From positions 366,987-430,986 of the forward strand of contig JAHEIH010000026.1 in assembly GCA_024639455.1 (NCBI GenBank): a stretch of 64,000 nt of DNA, given 5' to 3'. Of the stretch, positions 27,337-56,093 are shown in pieces; within the stretch, counting starts at the first letter, position 1, and each line of letters starts with the position of its first letter. Both the position numbers and the translations under genes were made by a program. Below the pieces are notes generated by a model that was not told the DNA's origin, did no database searches, and worked only from the letters and a program-made list of their open reading frames with translations. The DNA comes from Cellvibrionales bacterium. Its GTDB lineage: Bacteria > Pseudomonadota > Gammaproteobacteria > Pseudomonadales > JAHEIH01.

Positions 27337-27343
27337 TTGTCCA

Positions 27344-27424
27344 ACCTAAGGGGTGGCAGTCGCCTGAGATGTCCTCGGACAAACCCTTGAACCTGATCCG
27401 GTTAGTACCGGCGGAGGAATAGGT
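27344..27424 (+). ncRNA. TPP riboswitch (THI element)
   Basis: Contains the universally conserved THI-box segments in order: GGGGTG (27350-27355), CTGAGA (27364-27369), ACCCTTGAACCTGAT (27383-27397), the CCGG/CCGG hairpin (27398-27411) and GCGGAGGAA (27411-27419). P1 can form between ACCTA (27344-27348) and TAGGT (27420-27424). Thiamine pyrophosphate binding normally shuts off the downstream gene in proteobacteria, often by hiding the ribosome site. The start codon lies 43 bases after P1; CCGC near 27438 could pair with GCGG of the aptamer as an alternative fold, which is inference. Confidence 0.95.
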
Positions 27425-27467
27425 CGTTCATTTCACCCGCTGGTGCTGTTTCCATTTGCTATATAGG

Positions 27468-36484: not shown

Positions 36485-37003
36485 ATGACAGATATTCGCT
36501 ATTCAACGACACGTAAACTATTGCACTGGTTGTCGGCGCTTGCCGTTTTAGCTTTGTTCGCCTCTGGTCTATGGATGGTTGAGCTCGGCTACTACGATGC
36601 CTGGTATCAACGAGCACCTGCTTGGCATATCAATGTGGGTGTGTTGTTGTTTATTGTGACGACCGCTCGCTTTATGTTGCAACGCAACAACCCGACCCTC
36701 GATGCCTCGGCAATTCAGCGTGTCGCTGCACGAGTGGCTCATCTTTCTCTGTTGCTCTGTATCGTTCTGCTGACTGTCACAGGTTATGGGTTCAGTACCG
36801 CCGACGGAAGGCCGCTGCTATTTTTTGGATTAGAAATACCTAGTATGGGTGCTGTTATCGCCCAGCAAGAAACGGTTATGGGGGAATGGCACGAATTAAT
36901 AGCTTATGCCACGATTGGGCTGTCACTGCTGCACGCCGCCGCCGCCATTAAACATCATGTCATCGATCGGGATGACACACTTAAACGCATGTTAATCCAG
37001 TGA
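36485..37003 (+). CDS. Cytochrome b561 (YceJ/CybB type)
   Basis: 172-residue, four-helix inner-membrane dihaem cytochrome b. Candidate haem-ligand histidines lie in LLHWLSA (about residue 14), AWHINVG (about 45), VAHLSLL (about 85) and LLHAAAAIKHH (about 150-158). Such proteins pass electrons between ubiquinol and periplasmic partners; CybB-type members can reduce superoxide-derived or quinone substrates. It overlaps the reading region of yceI (stop 37003; yceI ATG 37015), the same pairing as yceJ-yceI in Escherichia coli, so the two act together, probably in quinone/isoprenoid redox chemistry. Confidence 0.92.
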   Translation: MTDIRYSTTRKLLHWLSALAVLALFASGLWMVELGYYDAWYQRAPAWHINVGVLLFIVTTARFMLQRNNPTLDASAIQRVAARVAHLSLLLCIVLLTVTGYGFSTADGRPLLFFGLEIPSMGAVIAQQETVMGEWHELIAYATIGLSLLHAAAAIKHHVIDRDDTLKRMLIQ

Positions 37004-37014
37004 GGGATGAAAAT

Positions 37015-37572
37015 ATGAAAAAGTTGATATTAGCCACCTTGTTATCAGCCGCTGTTGTGAGCCCAGTGTGGGCAGCGGATTACCGCATCGATGATCAAGG
37101 CGCGCACGCCTCGATAAATTTTAAAGTGAAACACTTGGGTTATTCTTGGTTGACGGGGCGTTTTAATACCTTTTCAGGTAACTTTAGCTACGACCCCGCC
37201 AATGTTGAGGCGTCCAAAATCGTCGTCGACATCGACACCAATAGTATCGATTCAAACCATGCCATGCGTGACAAACACCTCCGCAATGCTGACTTCCTCG
37301 AGGTAGATAAATACCCCGATGCCAAGTTTGTAAGCACCAAGGTAGAAGTGAACGGTGAAGACGCTATGACAGTCTATGGTGATTTCACTCTGCGCGGTGT
37401 TACCAAAAATATTGCCATTGATGCTTCAAAAGTGGGTGAAGGTAAGGATCCCTGGGGCGGATATCGCGCCGGCTTTGAAGGTGTGGCGGAAATTGACATG
37501 GCTGATTACGGTTTTGCCACGGATTTCGGCACCGTGATGCTGGAACTTCACGTTGAAGGTATTCGTATATAG
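37015..37572 (+). CDS. yceI: YceI family periplasmic (poly)isoprenoid-binding protein
   Basis: 185 residues from ATG 37015 (AGGGA seven bases upstream). A signal peptide ending VWAA (about residue 21) is followed by the YceI lipocalin-like beta-barrel, with INFKVKHLGYSWLTGRF (about 34-50), MRDKHLRNADFLEVDKYP (about 84-101) and a closing FGTVMLELHVEG. Members bind polyisoprenoids such as ubiquinone-8. Paired with cytochrome b561; a strong terminator follows at 37646-37673. Confidence 0.95.
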   Translation: MKKLILATLLSAAVVSPVWAADYRIDDQGAHASINFKVKHLGYSWLTGRFNTFSGNFSYDPANVEASKIVVDIDTNSIDSNHAMRDKHLRNADFLEVDKYPDAKFVSTKVEVNGEDAMTVYGDFTLRGVTKNIAIDASKVGEGKDPWGGYRAGFEGVAEIDMADYGFATDFGTVMLELHVEGIRI

Positions 37573-37645: not shown

Positions 37646-37673
37646 GGCCGGAATTTTTTCCGGCCTTTTTTTT
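37646..37673 (+). terminator. Intrinsic terminator of the b561-yceI operon
   Basis: Perfect 8-bp stem GGCCGGAA (37646-37653) / TTCCGGCC (37658-37665), TTTT loop and eight T residues (37666-37673). One of the strongest terminators in the window. Confidence 0.93.
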
Positions 37674-37782
37674 GGACGAAGATAGCTGCGTTGACATTGT
37701 TTCGTTGAGCTCAGTGTTTGGACTCGTCATCTAATCCCGCCTCGCTGACGCTTCTTCTTAATTTTTAAAATTGGTTTTTCCT

Positions 37783-38015
37783 CGTTTCTAAGTAGTGAGC
37801 ATCGGTATATTTCACTCGGAACCGCCGTGGATATGTCCCTATAGGCTACGCGGCAGCATCCTTGCTGCCGAGTTTCCTCGTTAAAATATACCTTTGCTCA
37901 CGGTCATGACCCTGCCACCCTGCAAGATATTGGCAGGGTGTTTCAAGCCCCCATGGATGGGTTTACGGCGTGTCGTTGTTGCATATGCGGTGGCTATACA
38001 AGTGAAATAAATCAT
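37783..38015. repeat. 233-bp structured tandem repeat, copy 1
   Basis: First unit of a head-to-tail array. It differs from copy 2 at 11 of 233 positions by my alignment. It carries the same hairpins (outer GTGAGCA/TGCTCAC, inner GGTATATTTCA paired with TAAAATATACC with one A-C mismatch, and a CGGCAGCA/TGCTGCCG hairpin), then a CCCTGCC/GGCAGGG hairpin. No open frame of convincing coding character, no transposase, no known RNA family recognised. Confidence 0.93.
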
Positions 38016-38248
38016 CGTTTCTAAGTAGTGAGCATCGGTATATTTCACTCGGAACCGCCGTGAATATATCCCTATAGGCTACGCGGCAGCATCCCTGCTG
38101 CCGAGTTTCCTCGTTGAAATATACCTTTGCTCACTGTCGTGACCCTGCCACCCTGCAAGATGTCGGCAGGGTATTTCAAGCCCCCATGGATGGGTTCGCG
38201 GCGTGTCGTTGTTGCATATGCGGTGGCTATACAAGTGAAATAAATCAT
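38016..38248. repeat. 233-bp structured tandem repeat, copy 2
   Basis: Second full unit, the most regular copy. Outer stem GTGAGCA (38028-38034) / TGCTCAC (38128-38134), a 2x2 internal loop, then an 11-bp perfect stem GGTATATTTCA (38037-38047) / TGAAATATACC (38115-38125). Inside this arm sits CGGCAGCA (38084-38091) / TGCTGCCG (38096-38103) with a TCCC loop. A separate hairpin CCCTGCC (38143-38149) / GGCAGGG (38165-38171) follows. Left part TTCAC can also pair locally with GTGAA, so two folds compete. Confidence 0.93.
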
Positions 38249-38408
38249 CGTTTCTACGTTGTGAGCATCGGTATATTTCACTCGGAACCGCCGTGAATAT
38301 GTCCCTATAGGCTACGCGGCAGCATCCCTGCTGCCGAGTTTCCTCGTTGAAATATACCTTTGCTCACTGTCATAACCCTGACACCCTGCAAGATGTTGGC
38401 AGGGTGTT
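38249..38408. repeat. 233-bp structured tandem repeat, copy 3 (3'-truncated, 160 bp)
   Basis: Matches copy 2 at all but eight of 160 positions and then stops abruptly after GGCAGGGTGTT; the last 73 bases of the unit (with the CCCATGGATGGG and TTGTTGCATATG segments) are missing. The large hairpin is intact; the final CCCTGCC arm carries a change (CCCTGAC) that weakens the last hairpin. Beyond 38408 the sequence is unique up to the mscS stop at 38472. Confidence 0.92.
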
Positions 38409-38471
38409 ACAGGGACCGTATTTACGGTGTGATGGCGCAGTCTACGTCAGAATACGTCATTCTTCTCATAC

Positions 38472-39323
38472 TTAACGGGTAATTTGTAACTGCCCATCTA
38501 CATGAATATCCCGCTGCGGGAAGGCCACCACAATATTCGCCTCGTCGAACAGTTCCTCTAGGCGGAAGCGGATGTCGCTGCGGATGCGGCGCAGGTCGCG
38601 TTCTTCACCAGAATCTATCCATAGCTTAAGGTCGAAAATTAACGCGTTATCCCCAAAGTCTTCAAAGAAAACCACCGCTGGTGGGTCGTTGAGGACTTCG
38701 GGGTGTTCGTTGGCGGCTTGTTCCATTAATTCGCGAACAGCCTTGACGTTAGAGCCATAGGCGACGCCAACCCGCACTGTGGTACGCATCAGTTTGTCGA
38801 CCAAAGTCCAGTTGATCACGGTGTTTTCCAGTAGGTAGCTATTGGGAATAAGCACGTGCACACCATCGTTGCGGCGGATGCGGGTGGAGCGTGTGTTAAC
38901 GGACTCTACGGTGCCGCGGATATCGCCCATTTCCAAGAAGTCGCCAATGCGGATGGGACGTTCCCACATGAGAATCCAGCCGCTGATAAAGTTATTGATG
39001 ATGTTCTGTGCACCAAAACCAATACCGATGGCGATCGCGCCCGAGACAAATGCAAAGGCGGTAAGGGGGATGTGGAGCAGTGACAGTAGCCCCAGAAATA
39101 GCATCACATAGGCGATGATCCAATAGGCGCGGGTGATGACTTGAATAGCGTCAGGGGTGATGTCGCGACGGCGCATAACCTTTTTAAGTATGCGCGTACT
39201 CCAACCGATAAAGATAACGCCTACGAGTAATACGGTTGGCACGATTAATAAATCGAGCATCGTGAGTGTTTTACCCGCAAAAGTTAGTAGGGGTTGTTCT
39301 AATATTGAGATAATCTCTTCCAT
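38472..39323 (-). CDS. mscS: Small-conductance mechanosensitive channel (MscS family)
   Basis: 283 residues: three membrane helices (about 20-42, 65-85, 88-115), the pore-lining TM3 with AIAIGIGFGAQNIINNFISG (about 95-114), a beta domain with GDFLEMGDIRGTVESVNTRSTRIRRNDG, and a C-terminal cytoplasmic alpha/beta vestibule. It opens under membrane tension to release solutes on osmotic downshock. ATG 39323; only about 24 bases separate it from the corA-like start, so both promoters must lie inside the neighbouring genes or one start is further in (ATG 39260 for mscS). Confidence 0.94.
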   Translation of the reverse strand: MEEIISILEQPLLTFAGKTLTMLDLLIVPTVLLVGVIFIGWSTRILKKVMRRRDITPDAIQVITRAYWIIAYVMLFLGLLSLLHIPLTAFAFVSGAIAIGIGFGAQNIINNFISGWILMWERPIRIGDFLEMGDIRGTVESVNTRSTRIRRNDGVHVLIPNSYLLENTVINWTLVDKLMRTTVRVGVAYGSNVKAVRELMEQAANEHPEVLNDPPAVVFFEDFGDNALIFDLKLWIDSGEERDLRRIRSDIRFRLEELFDEANIVVAFPQRDIHVDGQLQITR

Positions 39324-55564: not shown

Positions 55565-55592
55565 GGCGTGTGTCAACATGCTTGATGAAGAT

Positions 55593-55618
55593 AAAAAAAA
55601 CCCACCAGAAGGTGGGTT
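55593..55618 (-). terminator. Intrinsic terminator of the cold-shock gene
   Basis: Read on the minus strand: AACCCACC/GGTGGGTT stem (55599-55606 with 55611-55618), four-base loop, then T residues complementary to the A run at 55593-55600. It sits 24 bases after the cspA-like stop. Confidence 0.88.
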
Positions 55619-55641
55619 CTTTAAGCGTTCAAACGTTCCGA

Positions 55642-55848
55642 TTATACGGCTACAACGTTCTCAGCTTGTGGGCCTTTGGCACCTTGAGTCACAGTGAACT
55701 GGACTTTTTGGCCTTCAGCCAGTGATTTGAAACCGTCACCTTGGATAGCGCTGAAGTGAACAAACACGTCTGGGCCGCCTTCCTGCTCGATGAAGCCAAA
55801 ACCTTTAGAATCGTTGAACCATTTAACTTGGCCAGTAATAGTAGACAT
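55642..55848 (-). CDS. Cold-shock domain protein (CspA family)
   Basis: 68-residue single-stranded RNA/DNA-binding protein. RNP1 KGFGFIEQ (about residues 15-22) and RNP2 VFVHF (about 28-32) are complete; the sequence [18 protein letters not shown] is typical of CspA/CspD. ATG 55848 has AGGAG seven bases upstream; the frame remains open another 31 codons, but that is the untranslated leader. A leader of roughly 100 bases or more between likely upstream promoter sites and the ATG is compatible with cold-induced mRNA control. Whether it is cold-induced cannot be read here. Confidence 0.97.
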
Positions 55849-56093
55849 ACATTTCTCCTGTATTTCATAAATTTCGATGTAGCGGGAAACACAGGTATTG
55901 CTAGGAAGGGGCCTTGTAAAGCTTTGACTACCGTGAAACAACTGTTTTTCGTGCTGAAAACATTATGGGTGAGCCCTAATAAAAAAGCAATGTAATGGCA
56001 AACTATTTTTACAGGTCAATTTGTGGCGTATTTTGCCGCTGATGCTGCGAGGTAAAGAAATTACAATAAAAGTTACACAAATTTGAGGTGGCT

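Follow-up and report, generated by a model that had tools for sequence, protein, structure and literature searches.

A tandem intergenic array as a likely member of a dispersed, strand-specific fold-back family of gammaproteobacteria

The window, by which we mean the whole stretch of 64,000 nucleotides that was analysed, carries a tandem array in the 3′ spacer between yceI (plus strand, 37000 to 37572) and mscS (minus strand, 38472 to 39323), both gene names being those of the first-pass annotation. The array was described there as a real, non-coding and strongly structured repeat, and this description is borne out by our analysis. TRF reports a period of 233, 2.7 copies and 95% matches at 37782 to 38405, and the copies differ at 11, 8 and 9 positions. 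No coding open reading frame is present, a single terminator-like site lies at 37646 to 37665, and no promoter-like site was found near the array. The predicted fold beats those of shuffled sequences (z of -3.5 as RNA and -5.1 as DNA; 0 of 200 shuffles). The GTGAGCA/TGCTCAC stems are found at 37795/37895, 38028/38128 and 38261/38361, and the stems GGTATATTTCA/AAATATACC and CGGCAGCA/TGCTGCCG also lie where they had been placed. Each unit holds one full element on the minus strand together with a degenerate inverted half-copy. The features are given below, where R1 is a covariance model of 100 positions.

37782 to 38408, no strand: 2.7 tandem copies of a 233-bp unit (TRF and copy comparison)
37782 to 38014, 38015 to 38247 and 38248 to 38408, no strand: units of the array (TRF and copy comparison)
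37798 to 37898, arms reaching 37795 to 37901, minus strand: full element copy 1, three-way junction with GGA loops (R1, 68.9 bits, E 1e-15)
38031 to 38131, minus strand: full element copy 2 (R1, 75 bits, E 2.5e-17; DNA fold z -5.8)
38264 to 38364, minus strand: full element copy 3 (R1, 72.9 bits, E 9e-17)
37914 to 37994, plus strand: degenerate inverted half-element AGCCCCCATGGATGGGTTTACGGCGTGTC of unit 1 (R1, 24.9 bits, E 4e-4; pattern matches)
38147 to 38227, plus strand: degenerate inverted half-element of unit 2 (R1, 24.7 bits, E 4e-4)
37824 to 37847, minus strand: hairpin 1 of copy 1, AGCC-TATA-GGGA-CATA-TCCAC-GGC, loop AGGGAC (coordinates and consensus structure)
38057 to 38080 and 38290 to 38313, minus strand: hairpin 1 of copies 2 and 3 (as for copy 1)
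37851 to 37870, minus strand: hairpin 2 of copy 1, CGGCAGCAAGGATGCTGCCG, loop AAGGAT (coordinates and consensus structure)
38084 to 38103 and 38317 to 38336, minus strand: hairpin 2 of copies 2 and 3, loop AGGGAT (coordinates and consensus structure)
38409 to 38430, plus strand: right edge of the array, ACAGGGACCGTATTTACGG, apparently a diverged version of hairpin 1 at the breakpoint of the third unit (read from the sequence; no R1 match)

Some structural details must be read differently once these elements are recognized. The CCCTGCC/GGCAGGG hairpin exists, but it is not the separate hairpin it was taken for, being the hairpin of the degenerate second element in opposite orientation. Similarly, the mismatch noted in the copy-1 stem is a C.A pair on the plus strand; on the minus strand, the one that matters, it reads as a G.T wobble. 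A two-state switch proposed between TTCAC and GTGAA is not conserved in the family, as only 2 of 314 relatives keep this pairing, which is no more than chance would give.

Along the GGA strand, which in the window is the minus strand, the element runs from an outer arm through hairpin 2 (loop ANGGAY), AGCC, hairpin 1 (loop ANGGAY), a TTCAC bulge and GGC to the second outer arm. This order forms a three-way junction in which a sequence-variable outer stem of 25-40 bp meets two hairpins, the consensus of hairpin 1 being AGCC-nnCA-NGGA-YGnn-TTCAC-GGC. The 101-nt element alone folds with a z of -5.8 relative to shuffles. Among 58 aligned elements, which were chosen for well-paired arms, RNAalifold predicts 39 pairs, of which 35 show changes on both sides; paired cells amount to 93.9% versus 58.9% after shuffling, and covariation is 0.863 versus 0.199 for shuffled and 0.12-0.17 for slid alignments. 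Without this selection for arm pairing, the arms pair in 88% of elements, compared with 0.4% when arms are swapped. The GGA of hairpin 2 is invariant in the 58 aligned elements even though it was part of no search pattern, and it is present in 220 of 235 elements. That of hairpin 1 occurs at 264 of 264 loci when the loop is left free in the search, most of these loci having initially been fetched by core-containing patterns. The distance between the two GGAs is 22-24 nt in all 57 of 57 elements, and the GGA loops and the TTCACGG bulge are near-invariant across the class. Some elements (L319, L302, L316 and L225) have insertions in hairpin loops or at the junction, in places with a further hairpin, as in nested palindrome growth.

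A genome search with the unit, as the first-pass annotation had suggested, uncovers dispersed copies both in the same genome and in related genomes. The 233-bp unit recurs in its own genome, its core GCCGTGAAnnCATCCnTGnnGGCT (plus strand) recurs with other flanks, and R1 gives 24 matches there, 19 of them strong. In a sample of the order, the core is present with at most two mismatches in 41 of 146 genomes, and single genomes hold up to 64 pattern matches versus about zero for a reversed control pattern. In a sample of the phylum, R1 matches were found in 20 of 299 genomes, all from one class; at most 13 candidates were scored per genome, so copy numbers from this sample are lower bounds. Named genomes contribute at least 119 stretches with the element, nearly all from gammaproteobacteria, and the host genera among the matches listed include Xanthomonas, Stenotrophomonas, Shewanella, Cellvibrio, Microbulbifer, Methylotuvimicrobium, Rheinheimera and Sodalis, besides others. 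The copies are intergenic and scattered among the genes of many gammaproteobacteria. Thus, the array very probably consists of copies of a dispersed, strand-specific fold-back family, and its dismissal as an inert local duplication is refuted. A link to mscS or yceI is not supported. The mscS homologues of 10 relatives have no element alongside, and we reject a conserved place beside mscS on these grounds.

Several observations concern the surroundings of individual copies. Three loci of the window's own genome (L009, L010 and L013) have element copies between other palindromes, CCTTGTTCGCAGAACAAGG, which indicates that repeats of several families occupy the same intergenic sites. A single copy is also present in each of five E. 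coli genomes, all sampled from waste water or treatment plants, and in four of these it lies on a plasmid. The three regions inspected show it as a passenger between IS elements, uninformative on mobility. Neither the plasmid nor the phage collection contains a full element match, and spread by plasmids or phages was rejected for this reason. A weak outer motif, CGAAG, recurs roughly 20 nt ahead of the left arm in Microbulbifer-like copies (L209-L228, L279-L333); it is found at offsets -19 to -21 in 18 of 74 such copies, and this recurrence suggests that the mobile unit may exceed 125 bp. The GGA strand translates as ...APMDGFTAC... in one frame (e.g. L209), and long spurious open reading frames that could be annotated as proteins cross element copies. 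A literature search by words of the element sequence gave no relevant match.

Wobble pairs reveal which of the two strands is maintained as a fold. Outer-arm mismatches on the GGA strand, scored neutrally, comprise 372 G.T versus 83 A.C, so that wobbles are tolerated on this strand only, and three separate sets agree on the direction of the excess. Given that the DNA fold energies of the two element strands are almost equal, stability alone does not explain this excess, and something acts on the folded GGA strand. A role in host mRNAs predicts a difference between sense and antisense copies, whereas a folded single-strand mobile element, with an ssDNA or RNA intermediate, predicts none. Relative to both neighbours, 45 copies are sense and 49 antisense, and the G.T:A.C ratio is 53:13 in the former and 51:13 in the latter. 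The equal ratios indicate that the fold of one single strand is selected regardless of host transcripts. This orientation balance argues against a cis role, although by itself it does not prove ssDNA, since frequent inversion would scramble orientation too. Replication-strand bias, counted roughly in a single genome whose origin was assumed, was not clear and carries no weight here.

Comparisons between closely related genomes expose a considerable turnover. In a complete genome with more than 60 pattern matches (G144), which is probably a Microbulbifer judging by its resemblance to named loci, the arms vary among the copies examined yet still pair, and hairpin 2 comes in a small number of fixed types. 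At the L215 site, genus relatives lack the element in the aligned orthologous spacer. We compared 18 orthologous sites between two species (G173 and G176) whose flanks are mostly 92-98% identical. Some sites are identical or nearly so (L311/L324, L321/L333), one is a clean in-place inversion with arms kept (L305/L292), and two have opposite orientation together with altered arms (L295/L297, L322/L332). At several others, hairpin 2 and the inner arms have been exchanged (e.g. L316/L328, L313/L325), and one has a nested insertion inside hairpin 1 (L319 versus L301). Further pairs set two elements against none (L314/L447), an element against an outer-arm remnant (L300/L444), and an element against another palindrome (L302/L448). 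Among the changed sites compared, we found no clean insertion junction and no clean target-site duplication, the latter having been proposed as a check. These sites instead resemble replaced intergenic blocks, so intergenic recombination contributes. The earlier suggestion of a REP/BIME-like element, a MITE or a source of small RNAs pointed in the right direction, in that the element is dispersed, forms inverted pairs and is polymorphic between related species. The marks of a MITE, namely terminal inverted repeats of an autonomous transposon and a target-site duplication, were not found: the arms differ among copies, no transposase recurs next to them, and no clean duplication is seen at changed sites.

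The search for a mobilising partner yielded no transposase or mobile-element protein family that recurs beside the copies, the recurrent neighbours being housekeeping-type families only. One reading is that of an ordinary REP or BIME moved by a known REP-associated tyrosine transposase (RAYT). RAYT genes occur in 83 of 146 order genomes, including 20 of the 24 with at least four pattern matches versus 63 of the 122 others, and the window's own genome has two (NF047646; L031:1450-1899 and L032). Yet these two lie amid their own, different repeats, the element is absent from all 50 RAYT loci inspected (202 kb), and two of the genomes rich in it gave no RAYT match. The element also lacks a GTAG/GGAG-type head and a short REP stem, and its three-way fold is much larger. 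We consequently reject a RAYT partner on the 0 of 50 loci, and regard this reading as improbable.

Given these findings, we lean, by a modest degree, towards a REPIN-like fold-back element of a TwoAYGGAY/Ysr224 superfamily whose folded single strand is mobilised in trans. Such an element would most likely be exposed as ssDNA during replication, and its two GGA loops and junction may be recognised by a putative protein supplied in trans. The model for this would be REPINs, for which spread through RAYTs has been proposed. Tandem arrays would arise secondarily. Others in the family are of 204 bp (2.7 copies), 227 bp (6 copies) and 312 bp (1.8 copies), and because such arrays recur, we interpret the window array as a local amplification of a dispersed, non-autonomous element, for which no local role at mscS or yceI would be needed. 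Against the single-strand mobile reading stand the CsrA-like loops, which a purely DNA-level element does not need, and also the near absence from plasmids and phages, the lack of a recurrent transposase and the lack of a clean junction.

Those same loops are the strength of a second reading, in which the GGA strand would be transcribed into a CsrA/RsmA-binding module that serves as a sponge or 3′-UTR decoy, one CsrA dimer bridging both ANGGAY loops of each element. At this locus, three modules of this kind would be contained in a read-through transcript from mscS. The two loops agree with ANGGAN, the published loop of RsmE/CsrA hairpins, hairpin 1 (UACANGGAUGUA) agrees with the CsrA SELEX consensus RUACARGGAUGU, and the two GGA-loop hairpins lie within bridging distance, as CsrA bridges sites 10-63 nt apart with an optimum above 18 (PMC7652899). 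The wobble asymmetry is independent evidence that it is the GGA strand that folds, the confinement of element-bearing genomes in the phylum sample to one class is in keeping with this reading, and TwoAYGGAY, a member of clan CL00106, was proposed as a CsrA-binding sRNA in a 2014 motif study (PMC4333381). However, copies are sense and antisense to both neighbours at the same frequency and with the same wobble asymmetry, and their orientation flips in place. The array has no promoter-like site nearby, nor is the sequence beyond the element conserved strongly enough to supply one, and very stable stems were disfavoured in CsrA SELEX (PMC7652899). It is because of the orientation results that we rank this reading second, as a tentative possibility that is partly compatible with a mobile fold-back element. 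A selfish, invertible CsrA/RsmA decoy would combine the two, with a mobile element of the Gammaproteobacteria scattering two-site CsrA-binding modules into 3′ untranslated regions and in-place inversion toggling each copy between binding and silent orientations; we consider this doubtful. Finally, a neutral palindrome or inert duplication might be kept perfect by template-switch (quasi-palindrome) correction, with no strand-specific recognition. In its favour, the window copies are almost identical, and where close species differ in the inner arms, both sides have changed at once. Nevertheless, the strand-specific wobble asymmetry despite equal fold energies, the near-invariant loops and bulge across the class, and the dispersal of the element make this explanation very improbable.

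Two orphan Rfam families, the candidate RNA TwoAYGGAY and the Yersinia sRNA Ysr224, emerge as parts of one widespread gammaproteobacterial dispersed family. The folding strand can now be named, selection on its fold is independent of neighbouring transcription, and close species differ by inversion and turnover of copies. It thereby becomes testable whether this is a new type of single-strand mobile element, a CsrA decoy, or both. A caution also follows, in that element copies may be mis-annotated as small proteins or as sRNAs on the wrong strand.

The first-pass annotation recognised no RNA family here. This holds for the window, where the array has no Rfam match even at E≤1 (a TPP riboswitch aptamer at 27339-27436, plus strand, 69.6 bits, and a cspA thermoregulator 5′ UTR at 55592-55964, minus strand, 115 bits, are found elsewhere in it), but not for the element's relatives. 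Four divergent members of the family exceed the TwoAYGGAY (RF01731) gathering threshold of 43 bits (L418-L420 with 55-60 bits, L411 with 44 bits), and one, at 82.4 bits (L426), exceeds that of Ysr224 (RF02770; 70 bits); the window reaches neither. TwoAYGGAY has been described as a probable RNA, probably not cis-regulatory, from human gut, gamma-proteobacteria and Clostridiales (Weinberg 2010, PMC2864571). Like the element, it has an outer stem, a three-way junction, two GGA-hexaloop hairpins and AG...CGG at the junction. The element differs in its conserved TTCAC bulge in hairpin 1 and in loop position 2, which is often G rather than only Y (R in the window, with AAGGAT, AGGGAT and AGGGAC; relatives have G or T). 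The two TwoAYGGAY papers cited here (PMC2864571, PMC4333381) do not describe dispersal, orientation behaviour or inversion. The consensus of Ysr224, a Yersinia sRNA, holds the element core on the TCC strand (ACGCCGUAAAUACAUCCAUGUAGGCUCG...GCGCCAUCCCUGGCGCG), whereas its Rfam model represents the opposite strand and another fold.

REPINs (PMC3116915) resemble the element as dispersed, intergenic, ssDNA-type hairpins with compensatory arms that are polymorphic and have no gene of their own. However, REPINs have conserved ends and a variable middle, whereas the conserved part of the element is its tip, and they contain GTAG-type REPs with cognate RAYTs, whereas none of the RAYT genes at the 50 loci inspected is flanked by the element or linked to it. 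The CsrA-sequestering sRNAs of the CsrB/RsmZ type (clan CL00106) share the repeated, paired ANGGA hairpin loops, but they are single-copy transcribed genes with many sites, whereas the element is multi-copy and dispersed and has two.
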